This document shows, piece after piece, positions 12,146-41,058 of a stretch of 64,000 nt of DNA (within the stretch, counting starts at the first letter, position 1; each line of letters opens with the position of its first letter). The notes beneath the pieces are model-generated. The model saw only the letters and a list, made by a program, of their open reading frames with translations. It ran no database searches and had not been told where the DNA came from. Source of the stretch: Haloplanus sp. HW8-1 (GTDB lineage Archaea; Halobacteriota; Halobacteria; Halobacteriales; Haloferacaceae); assembly GCF_023703795.1 (NCBI RefSeq), contig NZ_CP098518.1:2294001-2358000 (forward strand). Reading direction: 5' to 3'. The translations under genes were made by a program, and so were the position numbers.

Positions 12146-14359
12146 TCACGGCCCCCACGACGTCGAAGAATCCAGCTCCTGTAGGGCATCCCGAAAGTAG
12201 ATGATCGACTCGTAGCGATCGGATTTCTCGCTGGCCAGGGCCGTCAGCAACACGTCGTCGAGTGCCGCCGGCAGCGCGGAGTCACGCTCGCTCGGGGGTA
12301 CCGGTGTCTCGGTCAGGGTCTTGTGCATGATCTCGGCGGACTGTCCCTCGAACGGGGGCCGGCCAGCGAACAGTTCATAGAGGACGGCCCCGAGTTGGTA
12401 GATGTCGGTCAGTTCGTCCGTGCCACCGTACTCGTCGTCGAACTGTTCTGGGGCGGCGTACGGCAGCGAGAGTCCGTCGACGCTCTGGGAGTGTTCCAGC
12501 AGGTGCTTCGAGAGGCCCCAGTCGGCGACCTTGGGGACGTCCCAGGCATCCTCCACCTCACGGAACAGGACGTTCTCGGGCTTGAGGTCGAGGTGGGCGA
12601 CGCCCTGGCGGTGGGCGTGGCGGACGGCCGTCGTCACCGCGATCGCCGTCCACAGTGCCTGATCGAACGGGAGCGTACCGGAACGGGCCCCCAGGTGACC
12701 GCCGTCCATGTACTCCATGGCGATCCAGGGGATCGGTTCGACGTCCCAGTCGATGACGCCCACGATGTGGTCGTGATCGGCGAGGCGGGCCCAGGTTTCG
12801 GCTTCGTCGAGGAGTCGCTCGACTCGTTCGGTGTGGATCGTCCCACTCATCCGGGGCGTTTTCAGCGCGATCGGCACGTCACCGTCGTCGCGTCGAACGA
12901 TCCCACGATACACGTCCGCGGTACCACCACTTCCGAGACGGTCGCCCCGGTCGATCCGATCGTAGTCGAGGGAGAGTGGCCGTGCGAGACCATCGAAATC
13001 GCCCGGATCGGCCGGCCGGCCCTCACCGTCCCTGCCACGAGCACGGCGATAGCGCCACACACCCAGTCCGGACAGCGTCGCGATCACCCCGCCGGTGAGA
13101 ACGCCCACCTCCCGATCGACGAGGTCACTCGCCGGCCCGAGAACCAACTGCGCGGCGGACGGGCGCGCGTCGGTCGACGGCTGCCCGGTGAGCGCGACCA
13201 CGTAGTTGTCGCCGCTGCCGACGTACAGAGTGCTGTCGACCACTGCCGGCGAGGTGACGATGCCACGCTCCGTCTCGTAGGTCCACCGCTCGGTGCCGTC
13301 GGCCGCCGTCAGGGCGTACATGGTGCCGTCCCTGCTCCCGACGTAGGCGATACCGTCGACGACGACCGGCGACGCCTCAACCACGTCTCCCGTCTCGTGG
13401 CTCCACCGTTCGGTGCCATTCGTAGCGTCCAGTGCGTAGACGGCAGTGTCGGCGCTCCCGACGACGACGGTTTCGTCCGTGATTGCCGGGGAAGAGAGGA
13501 TCCCTCCACGGGTCTCCGAGACCCACCGCTCGGTACCGTCGGCGGCATCCAGCGCAGACACCGTACCCGCGTCACTCCGCTCGTCGCCGGTCCCGACGAA
13601 GACGGTTCCGTCGACGACTGCCGGTGACGACAACCGCCGCTCCGCCTCGTAAGTCCACCGATCGGTGCCGTCGGCGGCATCCAGTGCCGTGACGTGTCCG
13701 TCGAGGCCGCCGACGAAGACGGTACCGTCCGCGACCGCCGGTGTCGTGGTCATCACCCTGCCGACGTCGCGTGTCCACCGTTCGCGCCCCGACGCCGCAT
13801 CCAGCGCGTACAGCGTGCCCTCCTGTGAGCCGACGTAGACGGTGCCGTCCGCGACGGTCGGTGACATCACGTTGTCGACCATCCGGTAGACCCACTGGCG
13901 CGTGCCGTCGGCCGCGTCGAGTGCGTACAGCCGGTCGTCCTGGCACCCGACGTACACCGTCCCGCCGACTACCGCGGGCGTTGCGTAGACGCTCCTCTCG
14001 GGCTCGAACCCCCACTGGACGGTACCGTCGGCCGCGTCCAGTGCATACACGCCGGCGTCCCCACAGCCGGCGTACACCGTCCCGTCAACCACCGCACCGA
14101 CGTGGATCCCCCGTGGTGGGCGGCTGATCGAGCCGGTGTCGGCGTCCCAGGACCACCGCTCGCTGATCCCTGTTGCCGGTCCGGTCGCGGCGGGATTTCG
14201 TCCGGAGTTCGCCGCGTCGACGCCTGCCATCGGATGGTCGGGTCCCCTTATCGACGAGTGTTGAGTGGCGCTGACGCGAGCCGTCCCGGCGATTCCTGCG
14301 ACTCCGGCCCCACCGAGTACCCGCAGGAATCCCCGACGCGGTGTCCGTCTCCACTCCAT
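12146..14359 (-). CDS. Receptor-like Ser/Thr kinase with PQQ-type beta-propeller ectodomain
   Basis: 737 aa. Domains in order: Tat signal with RRGFLRVLG at residues 8-16; many repeats of the pattern VDGTVYVG...ALDAADGTERW (about residues 45-400), typical of PQQ-enzyme-like beta-propellers; one membrane span around 415-437 ending in basic WRYRRARGR; then a Hanks-type kinase. Kinase motifs: glycine loop LGSGGTADVY (about 472), IALK lysine, catalytic loop HLDLKPEN (about 590, with HLD for HRD), ADWG for DFG, and YAAPE. Topology predicts an outside sensor and a cytoplasmic kinase. A TATA box 28-35 bases upstream supports the start. Ligand and substrates unknown. Confidence 0.88.
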   Translation of the reverse strand: MEWRRTPRRGFLRVLGGAGVAGIAGTARVSATQHSSIRGPDHPMAGVDAANSGRNPAATGPATGISERWSWDADTGSISRPPRGIHVGAVVDGTVYAGCGDAGVYALDAADGTVQWGFEPERSVYATPAVVGGTVYVGCQDDRLYALDAADGTRQWVYRMVDNVMSPTVADGTVYVGSQEGTLYALDAASGRERWTRDVGRVMTTTPAVADGTVFVGGLDGHVTALDAADGTDRWTYEAERRLSSPAVVDGTVFVGTGDERSDAGTVSALDAADGTERWVSETRGGILSSPAITDETVVVGSADTAVYALDATNGTERWSHETGDVVEASPVVVDGIAYVGSRDGTMYALTAADGTERWTYETERGIVTSPAVVDSTLYVGSGDNYVVALTGQPSTDARPSAAQLVLGPASDLVDREVGVLTGGVIATLSGLGVWRYRRARGRDGEGRPADPGDFDGLARPLSLDYDRIDRGDRLGSGGTADVYRGIVRRDDGDVPIALKTPRMSGTIHTERVERLLDEAETWARLADHDHIVGVIDWDVEPIPWIAMEYMDGGHLGARSGTLPFDQALWTAIAVTTAVRHAHRQGVAHLDLKPENVLFREVEDAWDVPKVADWGLSKHLLEHSQSVDGLSLPYAAPEQFDDEYGGTDELTDIYQLGAVLYELFAGRPPFEGQSAEIMHKTLTETPVPPSERDSALPAALDDVLLTALASEKSDRYESIIYFRDALQELDSSTSWGP

Positions 14360-14409: not shown

Positions 14410-17400
14410 TCAACTCAGGTTCCGGAGTGCATCCCGCAAGTAGAGGATCGAATCGTACCGATCGGACGCGTCGGTGGCCATCGCCGTTGCGACGATGTCG
14501 TCGATCTCGGCGGGGAGCGTCGAATCGAGCGTCGTCGGTGGCCGGAAGTCACCGGCGAGTGTGGCTCGCATGATTTCGGCGGGGGTGCCTTCGAACGGTG
14601 GGCGGCCGGTGAACAGTTCATAACAGATGGCACCGAGCGCGTACACGTCGCTCGCGTGGCCCGGCACTCCATACCCGTCGTCGAACTGTTCCGGAGCCAC
14701 GTAAGCGAGGTGGAGTTCCCCGGCACGTTGGGACTGAGTGCGCGAGAGCGCTCCCATACCCCAGTCACCGATCTTCAGACGGAGGCTGTCGTCATCGGTG
14801 CCCAACAGCACGTTCGACGGGTGGAGCCCGAGGTGAGAGGTCCCCCTGCTGTGACCGTGGTACACGGCCTCGGCGATCCGACCGACGGCGACGACGGCCT
14901 GGCGTGGGGAGATCCGATCGATGACCGGGCCGAGGGCTCCCCGATTCATGTACTCCATGGCGATCCAGGGGATCGGTTCGACGTCCCAGTCGATGACGCC
15001 GACGATCCCATCGTGGGCGGCGAGTTGCTGCCAGGTGTCCGCGACCGTGGCAAACCGGTCGAGGGTATCCGTGGCGACCGTCTCCTCGAACTGGAACTCC
15101 TTGAGCGCCAGCGGTCGCGCTCCACGCGTCGTCTCGACTCGCGCGTGGGACACCGTCGACACCGCCCCCCGTCCGAGCGGTTCTCCGATGGAGATGTCCG
15201 CGTACGCGAGGTCGATATCCTGAAGTACCGCCTCGGAACTGGTGTCGGCGGACCGATCGACCGGGCGTGAGGGATCGGTCGCCGGCGTCGCCGCCGCTCC
15301 GGCGGGGCTCTCGTTCGCCGTCGGATCGCCGGGTACGGCTCCGAACGTGACCGACTGGCTCCGGTCGTTGTCGGCCCGTTCGAGCAACTCCACGAACTGG
15401 TCCCGGAGGTACAGCACGGATTCGTAGCGATCCTCCTTCCGTTTTGCCAGTGCCGTCAACAGCACGTCGTCCAACTCGGCCGGTAGTTCCGGGGTCAGGT
15501 CGGTCGGGCGTGTCGGCTCCTCGGTCAGGGTCTTGTGCATGATCTCGGCGGACTGTCCCTCGAACGGGGGCCGGCCAGCGAACAGTTCATAGAGGACGGC
15601 CCCGAGTTGGTAGATGTCGGTCAGTTCGTCCGTGTCGCCGTACTCGTCGTCGAACTGCTCGGGCGCTGCGTACTGCGGGGAGAATCCCTCGATGCTGTTC
15701 GAGTGGTCGAGTAGACGTTTCGAGAGGCCCCAGTCGGCGACCTTGGGGACGTCCCAGGCGCCCTCCACCTCGCGGAAGAGGACGTTTTCGGGCTTGAGGT
15801 CGAGGTGGGCGACGCCCTGGCGGTGGGCGTGGCGGACGGCCGTCGTCACCGCCAGCGCCGTCCACAGTGCCTGATCGAGCGTGAACTCGTCGGCCCGCTC
15901 GCCGAGGTGGCCGCCGTCCATGTACTCCATGGCGATCCACGGGACTGGCGTGCTCCCGTAGTCCACGACGTCGACGACGTGGTCGTGATCGTCGAGTGCC
16001 GTCCACGTCTCGGCCTCGGCGAGCAGACGCTCGACCGTCTCAGTGTGGAGCGTCCCACCCGTCCGGGGTTCCTTGACCGCCAATGGGACCTGCCGATCGT
16101 CGGCCATCACGGTGCCGCGATAGATCTTCGCGTTCCCGCCGGTTCCGATGACTCCCTCCTGTTCGATGCCGTGGTAGCTCACGTTCAGAGGCGGCGGCGA
16201 CGGGATACGCGAGGGAACGGTGGCGTCCGCCGCTGATTCCGAGTCGGTGCCGGACGCCGCGTTTCGCCGATCCATCGTCCCGTCGGAAACGTCGGACGGC
16301 GTCTCCTCCCGTCCGGAGTCCCGGGAACGTCCACGCATCGGGGCATCGTCGCCGGACCGGTACCGATACGCACCGAGCCCGCCGAGAACCCCACAAGCGA
16401 GTAGAGCCAACAGGAGCGACTGTCCGTCGCCGGCGCCGTCCGGTCCCGCCCCCGCGGACGTGACAGTGGCCGACGTCGGCGTGGGATCGGACGCCGACGC
16501 CTCGAGGGTTTGGCGGCCTGCAGTCGGTGGGTTCGCCAGCGGGACCTCGACGCTCGTCTTGCCGGTCGCTCCCGAATCGTCGACGACGAGGAGGTCCGCC
16601 TCACGGTTGCCTGCCGTCGTGAACTCGAACGAATGACGCACCGTCTCGCCGGTGTAGTACGCGTTCGAGATTCGCCACCGGAACGTCTCGATGCTCCCGT
16701 CGACGTCGCTCGATCCGGTGCCGTCGAACGTGACGGTGTCACCCTGCTCTATCTCCGCCGGCGAGAACGAGATGTCGGGACTCGGGTCGGCCGCCGACTC
16801 GCCGGTCGTGATCGCCCATAAGTTCCCGGCACCCGCGACGTACACCGTCCCGTCGCCGACGACCGGTGTGGCGTTCATGTCCATGTCGAGTCCCAGAACG
16901 ATCGACCACAACACCTCGCCGGTTCGGAAGTCGATCGCCCTGAGACGGTCGTTCGTCACGTCGTAGACCGTCTCGTCCGCGATTACCGGCGAGGGTTCGG
17001 CGTTCGCCGTGTCGGTCTCCCAGCGGACACTGCCGGTGGCGGGATCGAGCGCCGTCAGCCGTTGGCTGTCGGAGAGGACCACCCCATCGGCGCCGACGGC
17101 CACCGAATTGGCGACCCTGCGTACACCTCTCGTCCACAGTTTCTCACCACCGGCGGCGTCAACCGCGAACAGAGAGCCATGTGTCGAGGCGGCGAAGACG
17201 GTCCCGTCGGCCACCGTCGGGATCGAACGCAGTCGGTTGTCGGTGGTGAACTCCCAGCGCGTCCGTCCGTCGCTGGCCCCGAGAGCCAAGAGACGTCCCG
17301 TCTCAACGCCGGTGACGACGACCACGCCGTCCGCGACGGCGATGCCGAGAGCGTCGTTCGTGAGGTCATCGCGTCGCCAGACTACCTCGCCGGTCGCCGA

Positions 17401-17988
17401 CCGGAGCGCAGCAACACCGGACTCGTGGGCGACATACAGGGTCCCGTCGAGCAGACAGGGAAAGCCTGTCGGGAACCCGATCGACTCCCGACGCCACACC
17501 TTGGTGCCGTCGGCGAGCGAAATCGCCTCAACACCGTTGAGCGCGGTGACGTACGCTCGCTTGCTATCCACGCTGAGTCCGGTGATTCCGGCACTCGTGG
17601 CGTAATCGGATTCCGGGCCGACCCACTGTTCCTCGCCGGTGGCTGCATCGAGGGTGACGAGGCGGGTCCGCTCGGACCCGTCGGTCCGTCGCACCCGCTG
17701 ACAGAGGAGTCGTCCGGCATCGAGACACGGGTTCTGCGGCGTTCCCGTGTCGATCGGGTAGTGCCAGGCGACGCGTGGCGTCGATCGGACCCCCGCCGCG
17801 TCCGGAACGTATCCCGTGTTGGCTGGATCGCTCTGGAACGAGTGCCACGTAGCTGTCCCGGTCGCCCGCGGACCGGGATCGCGTCCCGTCGCTGCCCTTC
17901 GCGGTGTGCCGACACGGGTGGTCCCCACGACCGCGGACAGACGTCCGATCGTTTTGAGGACCGTCCGACGTGTCGGCACTCCCGTCAC
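14410..17988 (-). CDS. Receptor-like kinase with PQQ propeller, PKD domain, one active and one degenerate kinase domain
   Basis: 1192 aa. Order: Tat signal (RRTVLKTIG, residues 7-15); PQQ-type repeats to about 400; a PKD-like Ig fold (TVTFDGTGSSDVDGSI, about 410-490); membrane span near 520-545; kinase 1 with IGTGGNAKIY, AVKE, HLDLKPEN (about 729), ADWG and YAAPE; then kinase 2 from about 938. Kinase 2 keeps LALKEF and GDWG, but its catalytic loop reads HLGLHPSN, so the catalytic Asp is Gly and the Lys is His. It is predicted to be a pseudokinase, possibly regulating kinase 1. GTG 17988 is chosen because TTTAA lies 26-30 bases upstream. Confidence 0.88.
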   Translation of the reverse strand: MTGVPTRRTVLKTIGRLSAVVGTTRVGTPRRAATGRDPGPRATGTATWHSFQSDPANTGYVPDAAGVRSTPRVAWHYPIDTGTPQNPCLDAGRLLCQRVRRTDGSERTRLVTLDAATGEEQWVGPESDYATSAGITGLSVDSKRAYVTALNGVEAISLADGTKVWRRESIGFPTGFPCLLDGTLYVAHESGVAALRSATGEVVWRRDDLTNDALGIAVADGVVVVTGVETGRLLALGASDGRTRWEFTTDNRLRSIPTVADGTVFAASTHGSLFAVDAAGGEKLWTRGVRRVANSVAVGADGVVLSDSQRLTALDPATGSVRWETDTANAEPSPVIADETVYDVTNDRLRAIDFRTGEVLWSIVLGLDMDMNATPVVGDGTVYVAGAGNLWAITTGESAADPSPDISFSPAEIEQGDTVTFDGTGSSDVDGSIETFRWRISNAYYTGETVRHSFEFTTAGNREADLLVVDDSGATGKTSVEVPLANPPTAGRQTLEASASDPTPTSATVTSAGAGPDGAGDGQSLLLALLACGVLGGLGAYRYRSGDDAPMRGRSRDSGREETPSDVSDGTMDRRNAASGTDSESAADATVPSRIPSPPPLNVSYHGIEQEGVIGTGGNAKIYRGTVMADDRQVPLAVKEPRTGGTLHTETVERLLAEAETWTALDDHDHVVDVVDYGSTPVPWIAMEYMDGGHLGERADEFTLDQALWTALAVTTAVRHAHRQGVAHLDLKPENVLFREVEGAWDVPKVADWGLSKRLLDHSNSIEGFSPQYAAPEQFDDEYGDTDELTDIYQLGAVLYELFAGRPPFEGQSAEIMHKTLTEEPTRPTDLTPELPAELDDVLLTALAKRKEDRYESVLYLRDQFVELLERADNDRSQSVTFGAVPGDPTANESPAGAAATPATDPSRPVDRSADTSSEAVLQDIDLAYADISIGEPLGRGAVSTVSHARVETTRGARPLALKEFQFEETVATDTLDRFATVADTWQQLAAHDGIVGVIDWDVEPIPWIAMEYMNRGALGPVIDRISPRQAVVAVGRIAEAVYHGHSRGTSHLGLHPSNVLLGTDDDSLRLKIGDWGMGALSRTQSQRAGELHLAYVAPEQFDDGYGVPGHASDVYALGAICYELFTGRPPFEGTPAEIMRATLAGDFRPPTTLDSTLPAEIDDIVATAMATDASDRYDSILYLRDALRNLS

Positions 17989-32249: not shown

Positions 32250-33317
32250 CTACTCCAGTCGATACCGCAACAGCGCCGCGATCCCGCCGAGGTTCTTCAG
32301 TCGCTGGCCGGGTTCGAACTCGCCCGAGAAGACGACGGCGTCGCCGCCCTGCCGTTCCACGGTCGTGATGATCTCGTCGGCGTCGACGTCCCACTCGCCC
32401 TCCCCCTGTCGCTCCTCGCGCAGGCGGTCGTCGAGGACGAGCAACGTCTCGACGGCGCCGTACTCGGCGGCCTCGGCCACCGCCTCGGGGCCGTAGGTCG
32501 CCTTCTCGCCCGTCGCCATCCGCTCGCTCAACTCGTCGATGAGTTCCGCCTCTCGGGCGATTCGCGTCTCGTCTTGGACGTCCTCGACCGCCCCACGTTT
32601 CAGCACCTCGTGGACGCCTCGGTCGCCGACACCCGAGGTGTCGACGGTGGTCGTCATCTCGGCCACGTCGGGAAACTCGTCCTCGAAGTGATCCAGGGCG
32701 TCCTGTTTGGTGAAGCCGGGACCGGCGAGGATGATTGCGTCGGGGTCGAGATGCGAGAGCGCCTCGCCCAATTCGTGGAACAGTTCCGAGCGCGGCCGGG
32801 CGTACTCCCCCTTGCCCGTCGGCCGGGTGAAGGAGGCGTACTCCTCGGTACCGTACTGGGCGACCGTGTGGACGTGGGCCTCTCCCTCCTCGACGGTGGC
32901 GATGGCGACGTCGGGGTTCTCAGCCGCCGCCTCGGCTTCCTCGATGCGCTCTATCTGATCCGGCTTGAAGTGCTTCTCGATCGTCAACTCGTCGTGTTCC
33001 TCGACGTTGAGCGTGTGGTGGTGGCCCAGTTGGTCCTCGCGAGAACAGCCGACGATGACGCCGCTCACCCGCAGTCGGTTGGCGAAGCGAGCGAACTCCA
33101 CCTCCTCGACCTCGAGGGTGACGTGGATGTGTTCGCGCTCGCCGCCGGTGTCGCGCATCCGGTCGTCGTCGCGCTGGATGCGCCGACTCGTGTCGCCCTC
33201 GACGTCGTCGCCAGGTTCGAGGACGTAGGACAGGTGCCAGAGGTCGTCGACGTTCTCGGGGACGACCGTCAGCCGGGTCTTCCCCTCCTCGCCGCGACCA
33301 CGGCTCTGGATTCGCAT
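32250..33317 (-). CDS. pelA: mRNA surveillance / ribosome rescue factor pelota
   Basis: 355-aa aPelota (Dom34), the eRF1-like protein that with aABCE1 and aEF1A splits stalled ribosomes. It starts [21 protein letters not shown] at ATG 33317. Residues 1-130 form the Sm-like domain, with [23 protein letters not shown]. The middle domain has [18 protein letters not shown] and [18 protein letters not shown]. The C-terminal domain ends [18 protein letters not shown]. Length is standard. The next translation-rescue gene, rqcH, is 5.6 kb away, with DUF4013 and two kinase genes between. Confidence 0.95.
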
Positions 33318-33379
33318 ACTGGAGCCTCGCCGTCCACGGGGACATAGCTTGCCATTCGACCTCGCTTCCTGCCGACCCC

Positions 33380-34084
33380 TCAGACTGCCGGCTGCTCCGT
33401 ACTCGTCTCGCCGTCCTCGTCGTGGACCGTCAGCCCGCGGGCGTCCCCCCAGGCGTGACCGACGATGTAGTACGCCGCGACGACGGCGTAGAAGCTCACG
33501 AACGCCCCGACGAACGTGCCGACGAACGGAACGACGCTGAGCAGTCCCGTGACGACCCCCGCCCCGAGGACGACGACGAAGCCGAGCAGCCACGCCGTTG
33601 CGTAGGTGCCCGAGGTGAGGACGGGGCGCAGGTCGCTGACGGCGAAGCCTGCGCCGAACGATCCCTGTTCCGCGTAGTTGGCGACCGCCGCCGGGACGAC
33701 GTACGCCGCGAGCAGGCCGACGACGAGCGCCAGCAGCCCGCCGACGAACGTCACGCCGCCAACCAGCAGCCCACTCCGGGGTCCCGGCCCCGCGACCACC
33801 GCGGCGATCCCCGCGGTCAGGGCGATCAGCAGGCCGGGGACGATCCCGTAGACGAACGCGATAGCGACGGCGTAGAGGCCGTCGCGCCCGAGATCGCCCC
33901 AGTTCGCGAATCGTGGCGGCGTGTCGTCGCCGTGCATCGTCGCTCGCAGGACTCGGACCAGGTAGCCGGCGACGAAGACGACGGGAACGAGCAGGAACCC
34001 GAAGAACGTCAACAAGCCGCCGATCAGGACCGTCTTTACCCAGTCGTCGCTCGTCCGCAGGTAGGTGAGTGATTCGTTGATCAT
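33380..34084 (-). CDS. DUF4013 family membrane protein
   Basis: 234-aa protein with about five to six spans matching the DUF4013 pattern: early [20 protein letters not shown], a [16 protein letters not shown] linker typical of the family, and late [18 protein letters not shown]. Function unknown. Start ATG 34084. It is downstream of, and on the same strand as, the 707-aa kinase (119-base gap), so it could be an output partner in that locus. Confidence 0.87.
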
Positions 34085-34203
34085 GGTACCGAGCAGGACG
34101 GCCGATCCGCGTGTTGCTCTGTAACGTATAACGTGCCTGACGGTATTAAAGGTAGCATGTCTGACAGTCACTCGCTCCCGGCTGTTCGGCGGGGACAGCC
34201 CTC

Positions 34204-36327
34204 TCAGTCCGCCGTCACGTCGCGGAGTGCGTCCCGCAGGTAGAGGACTGACTCGTAGCGGTCGGCCTTCTCCCTCGCGAGTGCGGTCAACAGGACGCCG
34301 TCCAGTGCGGACGGGAGATCCGCGACGTCGCTCGGGGGTGTCGGGTCCTCGTGCAGGACGCGGTGCATGACCTTGGCCGGCTTGCCCTCGAAGGGTGGTC
34401 GGCCCGTGAACAGTTCGTACAGTACGGCGCCGAGCTGGTAGACGTCGGTGATGTCGTCGACCGAGCCGAACTCGTCGTCGAACTGCTCGGGGGCGGCGTA
34501 CTGGGGGGACAGACCCTCGACGCTCTTCGAGTGTTCCAGCAGGTGTTTCGACAGGCCCCAGTCGGCGACCTTCGGCACGTCCCACGCGTCCTCGACCGAG
34601 CGAAACAGGACGTTTTCGGGCTTCAGGTCGAGGTGAGCGACCCCCATCCGGTGGGCATGACGCACGCCTTTGGTAATGCCGAGGGCAGTCCACAACGCCT
34701 GCTCGAACGGCAGGTCGCCGGCCCGGGTGCCGAGATGGCCGCCGTCCATGTACTCCATGGCGATCCACGGGAGCGGTTCGGCGCCGTAGTCGACGACGCC
34801 CACCACGTGGTCGTGGTCGTCGAGTTTGTCCCACGTTTCCGCCTCCGCCAGCAGTCGCTCCACCGCGTCCGTATGCAGGGTCCCCTGCATCCGGGGGCGC
34901 TTGATCGCCAGGGTCACGTCGCCGTCGGGCGTGGGCAGGGTCGCCTTCGTCACGTCGGCGTTGCCACCGCCGCCGATCGGTTCCTCGTCGGTCAGGGCGT
35001 CGTAGTCGACGCGAACGTCGGGCGCCCGCGGGATTCGCTCCGGTGGGCCGGGGCGGTCGGCTCCCGGCGCCTCGACGTCGGGACCGTCGTCGGCGGGGGT
35101 GGAGACAGCAGTGGTAGTGGTGTCAACGCCGGTAGCGTTTGCCTCCCCCTCCTCGTCGACTTCGGAACGGAGGTGTTCCAGTTCCTCTCTCGGCCACGAA
35201 GCGTCGTCTTGCGTATCTTCCCCGTCGTCCCGGATGCGCTCCGGAGCCGCTCGCTCATCGCCGCGGGAGAGGTCCGGGTCGTCGTCGCGTTCGTCACGGT
35301 TCCACCACCACAGGCCGGCACCGACAGCGGCGGCGCCCACCCCCGCCCCGGCGACGACCCCCGCGGCGGGGAAGCCACCGTCGGGGTCATCGCCGCTCGA
35401 CAGTGCCGGTGTCCGCGTCGCCATCGTCGACGTCGGCGTCGGCGTCGGTGTGGACGTCGCCGAGGCTGTCGCCGTTCGTTCGACGAAGAGGGCGACCACG
35501 TCGCCGCTCGCCCCGTCGGAGACGCGGATCGTGTAGGTCGCCGGCACGGCGTCGGCCGGCGTTTCGAGGGTCGTCCGCCACCGTCCCGCGTCGTCCCAGT
35601 CGGTGACCCGTGCCTCCGAGACGGTCGTCCCTTCGTGATCGTTGAACGCGACCGTGATCGCGTTCCCGTCGAACCAGCGATTCGTCGTCCCTTCCACGAC
35701 CACCGCCGATCCCACCGGGACGGGGTTGATTCCGATCGCCTCCTCGCCCACGGGATAGACGTTCTCGACGACGGTGTCCGCCCGACGGTGTCGGAACGCC
35801 GACGTGTTCATCAGGTCGTCACTCCCCGCCTCGCTGACCGTCGCGTTGACGAGTCGAGCCCTGACCTGATCGCCGGAGAGGTCCGCGGAGAGATCGTCGA
35901 GATAGGCTTCGAGCGAGTCGCCACCGTCGCCCCCGCCGATCCACGCGGGGTTCGACCCGTCACCGAGGTTCCCGTCGGCTCCCTCGGAGAGGACGCTCGC
36001 GCTGATCCGTCCCTCGCCGACCGAACCGACGGTCACCTCGGTTTCGAACGTCCGGTCAGTCACGGGAGCGACCGTCAGCGACCGACTGCCGTCCTCGCCG
36101 CCGACGACGATCGCAACCTCGTCGACGACCCCACCCGTCTCCCCGCTGACCGAGAAGGTGCCGTCCGGGACGGCGACCTGTCCGTCGACGGTGCTGAACG
36201 AGGCGGACAGGCTCGGCGTCGCGCCGTCCTGTGCCTCCACGCCCGCGGTACCGGTCACCGCCGTCGCCCCGACGACCATCCCCCCGACTGCTCGCAGCGT
36301 CGCCCGCCGCGTCCACGATGCGTCCAT
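34204..36327 (-). CDS. Receptor-like Ser/Thr kinase with surface-glycoprotein-like ectodomain
   Basis: 707 aa. Tat-like signal (RRATLRAVGG, residues 7-16); an ectodomain to about 290 that has no PQQ repeats and instead resembles haloarchaeal surface-glycoprotein (BGTF-type) modules (VVVEGTTNRWFDGNAITVAF); a Thr/Pro/Ser stalk; a membrane span near 312-335; then an acidic juxtamembrane region with SWPREELEHLRSEVDEEG. Kinase from about 445: IGGGGNADVTKA, LAIKRPR, HLDLKPEN (about 562), ADWG, YAAPE. CTTATC 26-31 bases upstream supports ATG 36327 and a leaderless transcript. The kinase DNA is nearly identical to that of the next gene. Confidence 0.87.
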   Translation of the reverse strand: MDASWTRRATLRAVGGMVVGATAVTGTAGVEAQDGATPSLSASFSTVDGQVAVPDGTFSVSGETGGVVDEVAIVVGGEDGSRSLTVAPVTDRTFETEVTVGSVGEGRISASVLSEGADGNLGDGSNPAWIGGGDGGDSLEAYLDDLSADLSGDQVRARLVNATVSEAGSDDLMNTSAFRHRRADTVVENVYPVGEEAIGINPVPVGSAVVVEGTTNRWFDGNAITVAFNDHEGTTVSEARVTDWDDAGRWRTTLETPADAVPATYTIRVSDGASGDVVALFVERTATASATSTPTPTPTSTMATRTPALSSGDDPDGGFPAAGVVAGAGVGAAAVGAGLWWWNRDERDDDPDLSRGDERAAPERIRDDGEDTQDDASWPREELEHLRSEVDEEGEANATGVDTTTTAVSTPADDGPDVEAPGADRPGPPERIPRAPDVRVDYDALTDEEPIGGGGNADVTKATLPTPDGDVTLAIKRPRMQGTLHTDAVERLLAEAETWDKLDDHDHVVGVVDYGAEPLPWIAMEYMDGGHLGTRAGDLPFEQALWTALGITKGVRHAHRMGVAHLDLKPENVLFRSVEDAWDVPKVADWGLSKHLLEHSKSVEGLSPQYAAPEQFDDEFGSVDDITDVYQLGAVLYELFTGRPPFEGKPAKVMHRVLHEDPTPPSDVADLPSALDGVLLTALAREKADRYESVLYLRDALRDVTAD

Positions 36328-36352
36328 CGTACACGAAACTTCGCAGGACCCC

Positions 36353-36358
36353 GATAAG
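36353..36358 (-). promoter_or_regulatory. TATA-like element of the 707-aa kinase gene
   Basis: CTTATC on the minus strand, 26-31 bases upstream of ATG 36327, lying in the 64-base gap after the end of the 844-codon-frame kinase gene. Confidence 0.4.
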
Positions 36359-36391
36359 TGATTCGACGACGCGCCGGTCCCGCCTTCGGCG

Positions 36392-38914
36392 TCAGTCCGC
36401 CACCACGTCCCGCAACCCGTCCCGGAGGTACAGCACGGACTCGTACCGGTCCTGCTTGTCCGTTTCGAGAGCCGTCAGCAACACGTCGTCCAGCGCCGCC
36501 GGTACGTCGGCCACCTCGCTCGGGGGCGTCGGATCCTCGTGCAGGACGCGGTGCATCGTTTTCGCGGGCTTTCCCTCGAACGGCGGGGCGCCGGTGAACA
36601 GTTCGTACAACACGACACCCAACTGGTAGACGTCGGTGATGTCGTCGACCGAGCCGAACTCGTCGTCGAACTGCTCGGGGGCGGCGTACTGGGGAGAGAG
36701 TCCCTCGACGCTCTTCGAGTGTTCCAGCAGGTGTTTCGACAGGCCCCAGTCGGCGACCTTCGGCACGTCCCACGCGTCCTCGACCGACCGGAAGAGGACG
36801 TTCGCGGGTTTCAGATCGAGGTGGGCGACCCCGCGGCGGTGGGCGTGACGCACGCCTTTGGTAATGCCGAGGGCAGTCCACAACGCCTGCTCGAAGTCGA
36901 GGTCGCCGGCCCGGGTGCCGAGATGGCCGGCGTCCATGTACTCCATGGCGATCCACGGGAGCGGTTCGGCGCCGTAGTCGACGACGCCCACCACGTGGTC
37001 GTGGTCGTCGAGTTTGTCCCACGTCTCGGCCTCCGTCAGCAACCGCTCGACCGCGTCCGTGTGGAGCGTCCCCGACATCCGGGGAACCTTGATCGCCAGC
37101 GTCACGTCGCCGTCCGGCGTGGGCAGGGTCGCCTTCGTCACGTCGGCGTTGCCACCGCCGCCGATGGGTTCCTCGTCGGTCAGGGCGTCGTAGTCGACGC
37201 TCACGTCGGGCGCCCGCGGGATCGACTCGGGTGGCCCGAGACGGTCCCCACCCTCGGACGCCGCCAGCGGGTCCCGCCGTCGTCGATCGGCCGCCTCTCG
37301 GCGGGCGTCGAACCCCGCCTCGGCCGCCCGGTCGGTCAGCGCGTCCGCGCGGGCCACCGCCTCCCGGGCGTCGTCGAGGGTCGTCGCCTCGGCTTCGAGG
37401 CTGTCGCCGGCGTCGATTGCGCCGGAGGCGGGATCGGGGTTCGTCTCCGCATCGGCGTCGGACACTCCTTCGCCAGCCTCACCCGCCGTCCCGGTACTGC
37501 CTCCCTCGTCCGCGTCGGCCCGGAGGCGTTCGACGTCCTCCTCGGGCCACGAAACCCCGTCCGGTTCTCCCTCGTCGCCGTCGTCCCGGATGCGCTCCAG
37601 CGCCGTCGGTCGGTCGTCGTCGCGAACGGCGGGCGGTTCGTCCCCGCCACCGTCCCGGCGCCGATGTCGATACCACAGCGCACCCCCGGTGAGCGCGGCG
37701 GTCGACCCGAAGGCCGACATGGCGATGACCGGCCACCTGCGTTCGAGGAACAGTTCCGCTCGCGCGTCCGCAACCGGCAGGTCGACGGCCGCGGAGGCGA
37801 CCCGTTCGCTCCCGGCCTCCAGCGCGTACAGGTGGCCGTCGGCACTCGACACGTAGACGCGCCCGCCGGCGACGGCCGGCGAGCGAAGCCAGTCCCCCGC
37901 CTCGAAGCGCCAGCGCTCCGTGCCGTCGGCCGCGTTCAGCGCGTACAGGTGCCGGGTCCCTCCGACGTAGACGGTGCCGTCGACCACCGCGGGCTTCCCG
38001 ATGATCCCGTCCGTCCCGAACGACCAGCGCTCCGTGCCGTCGGCCGCGCTCAGCGCGCTCACGCCGCCGCCACGCTCGACGTAGACGGTGCCGTCGGCCA
38101 CCGACGGAGACGGATACCCGCGGTCCGTCTCGACGCTCCACCGCTCGCTCCCGTCGGCGGCATCCAGCGCGTACAGGGGGGACTCGTAGCCGCCGACGTA
38201 GACGACGCCGTTCGCCACCGCCGGCGTCCCCACGCCGCTGCCGACGGCGAAGCGCCACCGCTCGCTCCCGTCGGCCGTGGCGAGGGCGTACAGGGTGTCG
38301 TCGTCGCTGCCGACGTAGACCGTGTCGCTCGCCACCGCCGGCACCGAACGCACCGTTTCGTCCGTCGGGAAGCGCCACCGCAGGCTCCCGTCGGCGGCGG
38401 CGAGTGCGTACACGTCGCTGGCCGATCCCCCGACCAGCACGGTATCGCCGGCGACGGTCGGCCCCGCGGTGATCGAATCGTCGGTCGAAAATCGCCAGCG
38501 CTCCGTGCCGTCACCCGCGCTCAGCGCGTACACCCTGTCCCCTCGCCCGACGTAGACGGTGCCGTCGACCACCGCCGGCGACACCACCTCGTCCTCGCCG
38601 CCGAAGCGCCAGCGCTCCGTACCGTCGGCCGCGTCGAGCGCCCGTAGCCCGTCCAGGCTCTCGACGTAGACGGTGCCGTCGGCCACCACTGCCGATCCGG
38701 GCCCGTCCAGTCCGACCCGCCACGCCTCGCGGACTCCCTCGACGGGACCGGTGTTCCCCGGCACGTTCCCCGTGTTCGCCGCGCCGCCACCGAACTGTGG
38801 CCACGACTCGCCGGTCTGGGCCGTGCCGACTCTCGCCGTCCCGGTCACCACTCCTCCGAGGACTGTCCCGCCGATCGTTCGCAACACTCCCCGGCGTGTC
38901 CGCCCCTCGGCCAT
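36392..38914 (-). CDS. Receptor-like Ser/Thr kinase with PQQ-type beta-propeller ectodomain (locus 2)
   Basis: 840 aa from ATG 38914, chosen over 38926 because the TATA element at 38941-38947 lies 27 bases upstream. Order: Tat signal (TRRGVLRTIGG); PQQ-type repeats with VDGTVYVG and ALDAADGTERWRF to about 365; membrane span near 400 (WPVIAMSAFGSTAALTGGAL); a long acidic juxtamembrane linker sharing SWPEEDVERLRADADEGG with the neighbouring kinase; kinase from about 580 with IGGGGNADVTKA, LAIKVPR, HLDLKPAN (about 700), ADWG, YAAPE. An outside propeller and inside kinase are predicted. Ligand unknown. Confidence 0.88.
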   Translation of the reverse strand: MAEGRTRRGVLRTIGGTVLGGVVTGTARVGTAQTGESWPQFGGGAANTGNVPGNTGPVEGVREAWRVGLDGPGSAVVADGTVYVESLDGLRALDAADGTERWRFGGEDEVVSPAVVDGTVYVGRGDRVYALSAGDGTERWRFSTDDSITAGPTVAGDTVLVGGSASDVYALAAADGSLRWRFPTDETVRSVPAVASDTVYVGSDDDTLYALATADGSERWRFAVGSGVGTPAVANGVVYVGGYESPLYALDAADGSERWSVETDRGYPSPSVADGTVYVERGGGVSALSAADGTERWSFGTDGIIGKPAVVDGTVYVGGTRHLYALNAADGTERWRFEAGDWLRSPAVAGGRVYVSSADGHLYALEAGSERVASAAVDLPVADARAELFLERRWPVIAMSAFGSTAALTGGALWYRHRRRDGGGDEPPAVRDDDRPTALERIRDDGDEGEPDGVSWPEEDVERLRADADEGGSTGTAGEAGEGVSDADAETNPDPASGAIDAGDSLEAEATTLDDAREAVARADALTDRAAEAGFDARREAADRRRRDPLAASEGGDRLGPPESIPRAPDVSVDYDALTDEEPIGGGGNADVTKATLPTPDGDVTLAIKVPRMSGTLHTDAVERLLTEAETWDKLDDHDHVVGVVDYGAEPLPWIAMEYMDAGHLGTRAGDLDFEQALWTALGITKGVRHAHRRGVAHLDLKPANVLFRSVEDAWDVPKVADWGLSKHLLEHSKSVEGLSPQYAAPEQFDDEFGSVDDITDVYQLGVVLYELFTGAPPFEGKPAKTMHRVLHEDPTPPSEVADVPAALDDVLLTALETDKQDRYESVLYLRDGLRDVVAD

Positions 38915-38940
38915 CGATACTGGCACCCTGTCCCACGTCG

Positions 38941-38947
38941 ATAATAA
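38941..38947 (-). promoter_or_regulatory. TATA box of the 840-aa kinase gene
   Basis: TTATTAT on the minus strand, 27-33 bases before ATG 38914. It decides the start, since a protein starting at 38926 would begin upstream of the expected transcription start. Confidence 0.55.
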
Positions 38948-38958
38948 GTCCTCGCCCG

Positions 38959-41058
38959 CTACTCCTCGACGATACTGCTCCCACCCGGCGGCAGGAACTC
39001 CTGAATCCTGTCGGGGCTCGCCACTTTCCGGAGGAACGACTGGTCCGCGAACCGCTCCTTGAACTCCCGGTAACAGCGCTTGGCGGCGTCGTTCTGGGCG
39101 AACTTCCCGGGTTCGAGGCGGAGCGTCGTCGCCGCCTTCGGTTCGATCGCCGACGGCGGCCCGCCGATCACCCGCGTCTCCGGTTCACACTGGATCCCCA
39201 CCGAAACGCTCGCGGAGACGTCACGGAAGTACGTGCGATCGCCCCGGATGACGAACCCGCCTTTCTCGACGTACTCGCCGCTCTCGGGCGTCTTCGACAC
39301 CTGCTCGGGTTCGACCATGTAGGCGTCGCCGGCGAAGCGGCCGTCCTTCCAGACCGAGGAGTAGGAGACGGCGAACTGCGCGGCCTCGTGCAGACTCGTG
39401 TCGGGGAAGTCCACGTCCCGCGCCTTCTCGCTCGGCCCCGTCGCCTTCAGCAGCGTCACCGGGCCGCCGTGGGCCTCCGCGTGGAAAAAGCGGTCGTTGC
39501 CGTCCATGTACTTCTTGACGATGGCCTCGTTCTCGTCGGCGTTCCGGCCGCCGATGACGAGAAACCCGTCGCTCGTGTGGAACCAGCGGAAGTCCTCGTA
39601 CCAGTGTTCCGGCTGCTTGATCGGGACCGACGACATCGAAAGCCAGTCAACGTCGCGTGGTTCCTCGGGTTCGTCCTCGTCCTCGCCGTCCCCGTCGTCG
39701 GCCTCCCACTCATCGCGCCGCCGTTCGACCGCCGCCAGATCCTCGCGCGTGTTCTCGATGGCCGACAGCGCCCCCTCCTTTTTTTCTTCGACCCGTTTGG
39801 CCTCCTGATACCGCCGGTCAGCGTTTTTCTCGACGCCCATCGAGGGGTCGACCGGCACCTCGGTCCCGTCGAGGTCGACCGTCACCTCGCCCTCGACGGG
39901 ATCGACGTCCAGGACGGCTTCGGCGGCCGGAATCCCGCGCTCGGCGCCCGTCGCGAACGTCTCCTCGATCTCTTCCCACGGGACGCTCTCCTCGCGGGCC
40001 GCCCGCACCGTCGAGATTATCTCGTCGACGAGGTCGTAGTGGGCGTAGAGCGCTTCGGCGCGCTTCCGCTCGGCCGCGGCCTGCTCCTCGAACCCCTCGA
40101 TGGCCCCTTCCTGTTGTTCGATGATCCGCTGTTGTTTGGCGATTTCGGCCTCGAAATCCGGGCGTTCGGTCCCCGTGGTCTCCTCCTCGGGGTCGCGTTC
40201 GAGCCGGTAGAAGTAGTCGTCGAGGGCGGCGTTGAAGGAGTCGAACCCCTCCGCCGCCAGCCCCGAACGCTCCTCCAAGGGGAACGGCGTCGCGTCGACG
40301 ACGCGGTCGTCCTCGACGTACACCCGTGGGTCGAAGTCGCCCTCGCGGAGCCGGTCGGCCAGACGCCCGATGGCGTCGTAGAGGGCTTCGTACTCGGCCT
40401 CGCCGGCGTCGGCGATGTCGAGGGTCTTCTCGACGCCCGCCCGGGAACAGATCTCCTCGCCGTAGAGCCCCCCGAAGTTGAGCTGCGTGGCGAGGGTCCG
40501 CACCACGTCCGTGTCGGACTCCTCCATCCGCCGGACGAAGGCGTCGTACCCGACGGTCAGGGGGTCGACCCGCGAGTCCGGAAAGCCGTACTGCGAGCCG
40601 GGGGCGACCGTCCGCGATTTCAGCCGGACCGTCTCCAGGCTCCGAACCACCTCGCCGCTCTCGTCGAGGACCGCCGCGTTACCCTGGCCGAACAGTTCCG
40701 CGACGACCGTCGTGTCCTCGTCGTCGCGTTCGAACTCGAAGACGAGGATGCGGTCGAACTCGTACTGCTCGACGCCGGCGAAGTCGGCGCCGCTCAGTCG
40801 GTTCCGGAGCATCATCGCGAAGTTCGGCGGCCGCCCCGGCGCGTCCGCGACGTGTTCGGGGTCCGCGACGTGGGCGCGTTTCACGTCGCCCACCTCGATC
40901 AGCAACTCGACGCGGCCACGGTCGAAATCCCGCATCCGGAACCGCAGCATATCGTCGTCGTAGAGGTAGACCTTGTCGACTTTCGCCCCCTCGTATCGCC
41001 CGAGTTCGGTGACGAGGGCGGCCAGGTCGACGCTGGTCAGTTCCCGCTTCGCGTCCAT
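38959..41058 (-). CDS. rqcH: Ribosome rescue protein RqcH (NFACT family)
   Basis: 699-aa NFACT/Rqc2/FbpA-type protein that binds the large subunit with peptidyl-tRNA after ribosome splitting. NFACT-N begins MDAKRELTSVDLAALVTELG, with the Asp102-Arg103 pair in YEFDRIL that corresponds to the tRNA-contacting DR motif. HhH and long coiled-coil regions follow (about 250-440, EEQAAAERKRAEALYAHYD). NFACT-R contains SSVPIKQPEHWYEDFRWFHTSDGFLVIGGRN (quoted in part), ending SSIVEE. Functionally paired with pelota; the genes lie on the same strand flanking the kinase locus. Confidence 0.95.
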   Translation of the reverse strand: MDAKRELTSVDLAALVTELGRYEGAKVDKVYLYDDDMLRFRMRDFDRGRVELLIEVGDVKRAHVADPEHVADAPGRPPNFAMMLRNRLSGADFAGVEQYEFDRILVFEFERDDEDTTVVAELFGQGNAAVLDESGEVVRSLETVRLKSRTVAPGSQYGFPDSRVDPLTVGYDAFVRRMEESDTDVVRTLATQLNFGGLYGEEICSRAGVEKTLDIADAGEAEYEALYDAIGRLADRLREGDFDPRVYVEDDRVVDATPFPLEERSGLAAEGFDSFNAALDDYFYRLERDPEEETTGTERPDFEAEIAKQQRIIEQQEGAIEGFEEQAAAERKRAEALYAHYDLVDEIISTVRAAREESVPWEEIEETFATGAERGIPAAEAVLDVDPVEGEVTVDLDGTEVPVDPSMGVEKNADRRYQEAKRVEEKKEGALSAIENTREDLAAVERRRDEWEADDGDGEDEDEPEEPRDVDWLSMSSVPIKQPEHWYEDFRWFHTSDGFLVIGGRNADENEAIVKKYMDGNDRFFHAEAHGGPVTLLKATGPSEKARDVDFPDTSLHEAAQFAVSYSSVWKDGRFAGDAYMVEPEQVSKTPESGEYVEKGGFVIRGDRTYFRDVSASVSVGIQCEPETRVIGGPPSAIEPKAATTLRLEPGKFAQNDAAKRCYREFKERFADQSFLRKVASPDRIQEFLPPGGSSIVEE

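Follow-up and report, generated by a model that had tools for sequence, protein, structure and literature searches.

In the genome of Haloplanus sp. HW8-1, two adjacent genes, here called A and B, encode putative receptor kinases whose kinase halves are nearly identical and whose ectodomains are unrelated. How did such similar kinases come to carry different sensors, and does their similarity reveal when this occurred? An earlier note on this DNA had answered that sensor domains are exchanged in modular fashion onto one kinase. We examined this proposal computationally in the 64,000-nucleotide stretch that holds both genes (the window) and in related genomes. On the minus strand, the gene order is RqcH, gene B, gene A, a DUF4013 membrane protein and a Pelota-like gene, and the features of the locus are as follows.

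38959..41058, minus strand: RqcH/NEMF-like (NFACT) gene, upstream flank
36392..38926, minus strand: gene B, with Tat signal, PQQ propeller, transmembrane segment (TM), juxtamembrane segment and Ser/Thr kinase (844 aa from the GTG start; an ATG start lies at 38914); from open reading frame and domain profiles
37787..38803, minus strand: PQQ beta-propeller ectodomain of gene B (PF13360; approximate bounds)
36623..37192, minus strand: gene B kinase codons 1-190, homogenised with gene A
36395..36622, minus strand: gene B kinase C-lobe, closest to the syntenic orthologues in genomes G008 and G003
34204..36327, minus strand: gene A, with Tat signal, S-layer D5-D6 ectodomain, Thr-rich spacer, TM, juxtamembrane segment and Ser/Thr kinase (707 aa); from open reading frame and domain profiles
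36229..36327, minus strand: twin-arginine signal of gene A, its DNA homologous to gene B and the G003 syntenic gene
35473..36213, minus strand: gene A ectodomain, homologous to D5 and D6 of csg-type S-layer glycoprotein (7ptp match and model)
35836..35913, minus strand: alpha-hairpin of D5 in gene A (model helices at residues 109-115 and 122-134)
35377..35472, minus strand: Thr/Pro-rich spacer of gene A (alignment)
35302..35376, minus strand: transmembrane segment of gene A, of the kinase-family type (..GLWWWNR), with no PGF-CTERM motif
35149..35265, minus strand: juxtamembrane segment of gene A (ERIRD..SWP..LR)
34435..35004, minus strand: gene A kinase codons 1-190, N-lobe to activation segment, homogenised with gene B
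34207..34434, minus strand: gene A kinase C-lobe, not homogenised (dS 1.17 to gene B, codons 190-270)
33380..34072, minus strand: DUF4013 membrane protein, downstream flank
32250..33317, minus strand: Pelota-like (eRF1-domain) gene, far flank of the conserved cluster (start approximate)

The near-identity of the kinase DNA that the earlier note had seen is confirmed by a gap-free alignment of 277 codons, with 88.2% nucleotide and 92.1% amino-acid identity. The 94 bases at 34743-34836 recur exactly at 36931-37024 (offset 2188), and further identical runs span 86 nt and 72 nt. By simple arithmetic for 831 columns at 88% identity, a run of at least 94 bases has a chance probability of ~7e-4, and the identity therefore appears to be clustered. 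It is confined to the N-lobe and activation segment, whereas the final ~260 nt that were aligned agree at 79% of positions, with a dS of ~0.9. Both genes also carry the SWP juxtamembrane motif that had been noticed, in the fuller form ERIRD..SWP..LR. Scores against PF00069 (99.8 bits for A and 102.2 bits for B, relative to a curated cut-off of 31.7) and conserved catalytic residues (GGGGNADV, LAIK, EAETW, HLDLKPEN and APE) identify both proteins as Hanks-type Ser/Thr kinases that are predicted to carry out phosphotransfer. The DFG motif reads DWG in both, with the Asp and Gly retained. PADLOC matches to phage-defence kinases (PD-T4-6, MAD6 and PglW) cover the kinase domain only and are generic, so they do not support membership in a defence system.

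The ectodomains share no such relationship. PQQ repeats are present in gene B (PF13360, 1.2e-51) and a surface-glycoprotein-like domain in gene A (TIGR04216 positions 474-735, 2.1e-34), as had been read from the sequence. When the gene A ectodomain alone is searched against all PDB sequences, the sole match is 7ptp (E 8.7e-33, chain residues 475-779), the Haloferax volcanii S-layer glycoprotein csg. A model of this ectodomain (mean pLDDT 79), constructed with the help of S-layer relatives from Haloplanus, has the D5-D6 fold, as evident by its superposition on 7ptp (Z 20.9, rmsd 2.2 A, 245 residues) and by a Foldseek E of 3e-21, and it includes the helices of the D5 hairpin. The ectodomain of gene A is the last two Ig-like domains (D5-D6) and the Thr-rich spacer of a haloarchaeal S-layer glycoprotein. 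In csg, hexamers are connected by a trimeric, cation-stabilised joint that the D5 alpha-hairpin forms, and D6 is stacked against the D4 domain of a neighbour (PMC8640222).

Gene A is not a complete S-layer protein. Its score against full-length TIGR04216 (118.9 bits) is below the cut-off of 400, and it lacks the PGF-CTERM anchor that the two S-layer genes of its own genome (L061 and L062) possess. At 31-40% identity to Haloplanus S-layer proteins, the ectodomain appears too diverged for a recent exchange, and its ~34% identity to L061 and L062 rules out that it was copied recently from an S-layer gene of its own genome. The propeller of gene B is closest to that of the syntenic G003 gene (58-61% identity). 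When compared with the kinase tree, a tree of PQQ ectodomains, in which two rows were poorly cut, has little resolution, with only the grouping of B and G003 L050 being firm (100/100).

If the kinase near-identity is taken as a clock, then gene B was recently duplicated in tandem and one copy directly received a new ectodomain. The tandem order, the common Tat-signal, juxtamembrane and kinase sequences, and a kinase protein tree that joins A and B (98/95) all agree with such a history, which we nevertheless regard as quite improbable because of what is found inside the kinase. Values for dS between A and B in successive blocks are 0.26, 0.13 and 0.24, and then rise to 1.17 in the last block (codons 190-270), whereas those between B and its G008 orthologue stay near 0.4 throughout (0.41, 0.31, 0.40 and 0.40). 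Variation in rate along the gene cannot explain the jump, since the second comparison is steady where the first is not. MaxChi places a break at codons 170-190 (p=0.0002 for all sites and 0.0006 for silent sites), in triplets that were picked after the distances had been inspected. Trees conflict in the same manner. For codons 1-190, the DNA tree joins A and B (99/99) and the syntenic group B+G008+G003 is rejected (AU p=0.005), with B+G008 alone not rejected (p 0.26), whereas for the C-lobe it is the A+B clade that is rejected (AU p=0.0087). On the other side of the core, the juxtamembrane segment of B is 93% identical in amino acids to that of G003, 76% to G008 and 55% to A, in a segment with few silent sites. 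The similar core therefore forms an island with diverged sequence on either side, which is the pattern expected of gene conversion. A recent duplication would also need the C-lobe of A to have been imported, which again is recombination within the kinase.

The converse arrangement, in which a recent duplication was followed by conversion of the A C-lobe from an unsampled kinase, makes the divergent part the converted tract. It fits the mosaic equally well at the right-hand breakpoint. We consider it improbable, because the compared kinases include no close donor (the nearest has a fourfold divergence of 0.42) and because the left flank has diverged too, such that two separate replacements would be required.

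Conversion of the core itself is also suggested by other kinases. The core of the multi-TM kinase L016 has a fourfold divergence of 0.24 to A and B of its own genome versus 0.43 to its orthologue L051, while its C-lobe follows L051 (0.20), and MaxChi yields p values of 0.0002-0.0003. Its conversion appears to be partial, because the core tree still keeps L016 with its orthologue (100/98). Several further triplets of kinases from one genome also give significant MaxChi results, most of the breaks falling at codons 155-190, and this recurrence among same-genome paralogues argues for gene conversion of the catalytic core; the flank-versus-core tests cover part of the kinase family. The hallmark of concerted evolution, a tract in which paralogues are closer than orthologues and which is bounded by sequence that follows orthology, is present here. 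Gene conversion is very efficient in haloarchaea, and the homogenised tract of ~570 nt fits the few hundred nucleotides cited as the conversion range for bacterial gene families (PMC8223754). Known cases of concerted evolution by gene conversion (PMC6053082; Haloferax, PMC8223754) resemble this one in that paralogues within a genome are more similar than orthologues over tracts of a few hundred bases. The Haloplanus case differs in being limited to the catalytic core of multidomain receptors, with sensors and C-lobes staying apart.

The window holds a second tandem kinase pair (12146-14359 and 14410-17988, minus strand), whose ectodomains are very different and whose kinases share an identical run of 115 bases (at 12308-12422, within the first gene). 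At fourfold sites, this pair differs less in the C-lobe (0.17) than in the core (0.37). The gene at 14410-17988 encodes PQQ, PKD and kinase domains and then a further kinase domain, with HLGLHP in place of HLDLKP, which is probably a pseudokinase fused to an active kinase.

Evidence for the exchange comes from the rest of the gene and from the locus. Members of the kinase family are present in 3 of 12 genomes of the genus, with many copies in each, and in 12 of 119 genomes of the taxonomic family. In all three of these Haloplanus genomes (G000, G003 and G008), a kinase resides in the same cluster of RqcH, kinase, DUF4013 protein and Pelota, and the sensor at this position differs: G003 has a single PQQ kinase, G008 has a kinase with only a two-TM hairpin and no ectodomain, and G000 has gene B (PQQ) together with gene A (S-layer). 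The RqcH of the locus is 90% identical to that of Haloplanus ruber. This cluster at 32250-41058 (minus strand) combines ribosome-rescue genes (RqcH and Pelota) with the DUF4013 protein, and a kinase-free version is found in other Haloplanus, in G001 and G009, and in many further haloarchaea. Relative to its G003 and G008 orthologues, gene B is missing a juxtamembrane stretch of ~60 to 80 residues (37200-37500, minus strand).

The ERIRD..SWP..LR motif is present in 4 of 91 compared kinase genes, all four of them at this locus. The DNA encoding the Tat signal of gene A aligns with that of B and of the G003 gene with scores of 27 and 33, relative to maxima of 18 and 21 for shuffled sequences. Because they share the juxtamembrane motif and homologous Tat-signal DNA, we infer that gene A was formed from the kinase of this locus by exchange of its middle. 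The hairpin of the G008 kinase was considered as a possible Tat-signal remnant, and this is unsupported (DNA score 13, shuffle maximum 17). The claim of modular exchange therefore stands for gene A, which keeps the Tat signal, TM type and juxtamembrane segment of its family and carries S-layer D5-D6 where B and the G003 gene have PQQ; the retained signal and TM indicate that it was the sensor that was exchanged. What does not stand is the use of near-identical kinase DNA to date or demonstrate the swap, as this near-identity reflects conversion of the core (dS blocks, MaxChi and conflicting trees). In this corrected form, a real sensor exchange in gene A combined with gene conversion of the A/B catalytic core, the proposal is partly supported by the sequences.

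Exchange is occasional rather than a general rule. Congruence of ectodomain and kinase across species, which the earlier note had named as evidence against swapping, is seen in part elsewhere in the family: in Hsp70-, multi-TM- and short-TM-kinases and in one PQQ pair, the N-terminal part and the kinase both stay the same from species to species. Across haloarchaea, the partners fused to this kinase module are PQQ, Hsp70/GrpE, a DnaJ zinc domain, HEAT repeats, multi-TM segments and coiled segments, which argues that modularity is real on a longer time scale. Several of these architectures were encountered along the way. Fusions of Hsp70 and kinase occur in three Haloplanus genomes (L013:4368-7925, minus strand, with a GrpE-like match; L069; L057), L137:7397-11050 (minus strand) from another genus has an Hsp70-like N-terminus and a kinase, and G099 (L140) has a kinase with a DnaJ zinc domain, such that chaperone-kinase fusions look like a recurring theme. 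Multi-kinase islands lie in scattered haloarchaeal genera (L137-L139 of G057, L141 of G099, L154-L155 of G165, L156 of G226 and L158-L160 of G172), with kinases joined to HEAT, PQQ, coiled-coil and membrane modules. A fusion of DUF4013 to kinase L014, suggested by similarity to the eye, was discarded because Pfam finds no DUF4013 in L014.

What the sequences show directly is the domain homologies, a Tat signal and juxtamembrane segment in common, the conserved synteny and the mosaic structure of the kinase, and from these we infer the following order of events. A and B stand in tandem and belong to a family of receptor-like Ser/Thr kinases that is specific to the lineage. A PQQ-type receptor kinase would have arrived in the RqcH-DUF4013-Pelota cluster of one Haloplanus lineage and been duplicated there. 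The membrane-proximal D5-D6 domains of an S-layer glycoprotein would then have taken the place of the PQQ propeller of copy A, between its Tat signal and its spacer and TM. Gene conversion would have overwritten the catalytic core, from N-lobe to activation segment, among paralogues of the same genome, while juxtamembrane segments and C-lobes went on diverging. We favour this account, taken whole and including signalling coupled to the S-layer, with moderate confidence.

Gene A might instead have arrived beside its homologue B by horizontal transfer from another Haloplanus lineage, its core being converted afterwards. The patchy distribution of the kinases and the clusters of other species that have no kinase at all would suit such an arrival, and yet no second S-layer-kinase gene turned up in the genomes searched; we find this origin rather doubtful. 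No second fusion was detected among 170 genomes of the family and 243 of the order, for each of which the best few candidates were scored. Because gene A is found in one genome only, it is possible that it is a dead-end chimera. The literature searched, which covered few subscription papers, holds nothing relevant on haloarchaeal PQQ or S-layer kinases.

Exchange of the middle of gene A followed by core conversion leaves the question of what an S-layer sensor would do. Most likely, gene A couples S-layer state to phosphorylation in the way that PASTA kinases do for peptidoglycan, a proposed role that is based on homology. The protein would probably be embedded in the S-layer or lie against it, held by the D5 alpha-hairpin (a cation-stabilised trimer interface) and D6. 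Altered lattice packing, curvature or divalent cations would then alter clustering of the kinase domains, and with it trans-autophosphorylation inside the cell. Gene B would act likewise for a ligand of its propeller. The homogenised core would keep catalytic output alike, and the sensor and the substrate-docking surfaces of the C-lobe would differ.

Bacterial PASTA kinases (PknB, StkP and Stk1) are similarly single-TM Ser/Thr kinases that read the cell wall via an ectodomain, and the nearest solved kinases to A and B are of the PknB/StkP type. This bacterial group is described as pairing conserved catalytic parts with varied extracellular domains (PMC12077195). NF033483 matches the kinase part only, with 159 and 152 bits, below the cut-off of 450. 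Unlike PASTA kinases, A and B have no PASTA domain in Pfam, their order is the opposite (N-terminal ectodomain with Tat signal and C-terminal kinase), and the presumed wall component for gene A is S-layer protein rather than peptidoglycan. With csg (HVO_2072 family, 7ptp), gene A shares D5-D6, the D5 alpha-hairpin and the Thr-rich spacer. It differs from csg by lacking D1-D4 and the PGF-CTERM/archaeosortase signal, by having a Tat signal in place of the S-layer protein's own, and by its fusion to a TM and kinase. Gene B resembles the AfsK-type kinases of Streptomyces in joining a kinase to a PQQ propeller (NF053615, 6.2e-65), with 220 bits compared with a cut-off of 1300. The domain order of AfsK is the reverse of that in gene B, whose propeller, unlike that of AfsK, is Tat-exported. 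The expanded Ser/Thr kinase families of Planctomycetota and Myxobacteria (PMC11032199) also show many paralogues, tandem duplicates and one kinase with many partners; the Haloplanus family is distinct in being archaeal, in exchanging sensors at one syntenic locus and in having its core under gene conversion.

It is possible, and we suggest it tentatively, that gene A is a receptor kinase built into the S-layer, an archaeal counterpart of the PASTA kinases in which the D5 alpha-hairpin takes part in Ca2+-dependent trimer joints and informs the cytoplasm about the integrity of the lattice or about divalent cations. Assembly domains of the coat would thus be placed on a kinase whose core is kept uniform across paralogues by gene conversion. 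A comparably tentative possibility is that the ectodomain senses nothing and is a rigid anchor or spacer, tethering the kinase to the S-layer or setting its distance from the membrane, with activity set inside the cell. In its favour, D5 and D6 are structural domains of the coat (PMC8640222), and the syntenic G008 gene keeps its kinase with no ectodomain. PASTA kinases use domains that bind the cell wall as sensors (PMC12077195), which argues against a purely mechanical part, as does the prevalence in the family of propeller ectodomains, whose fold typically binds ligands or proteins.

Gene A is a concrete and testable candidate for an S-layer sensor, and its ectodomain corresponds to the very region through which the coat forms its lattice contacts. 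The locus offers a clean natural experiment in receptor evolution, in which neighbours and juxtamembrane segment are the same and three sensor states are found in three species. It also carries a warning that similarity between kinase domains does not date sensor swaps. The mosaic kinase points to a process that could let the family change its sensors and yet keep one common catalytic core.
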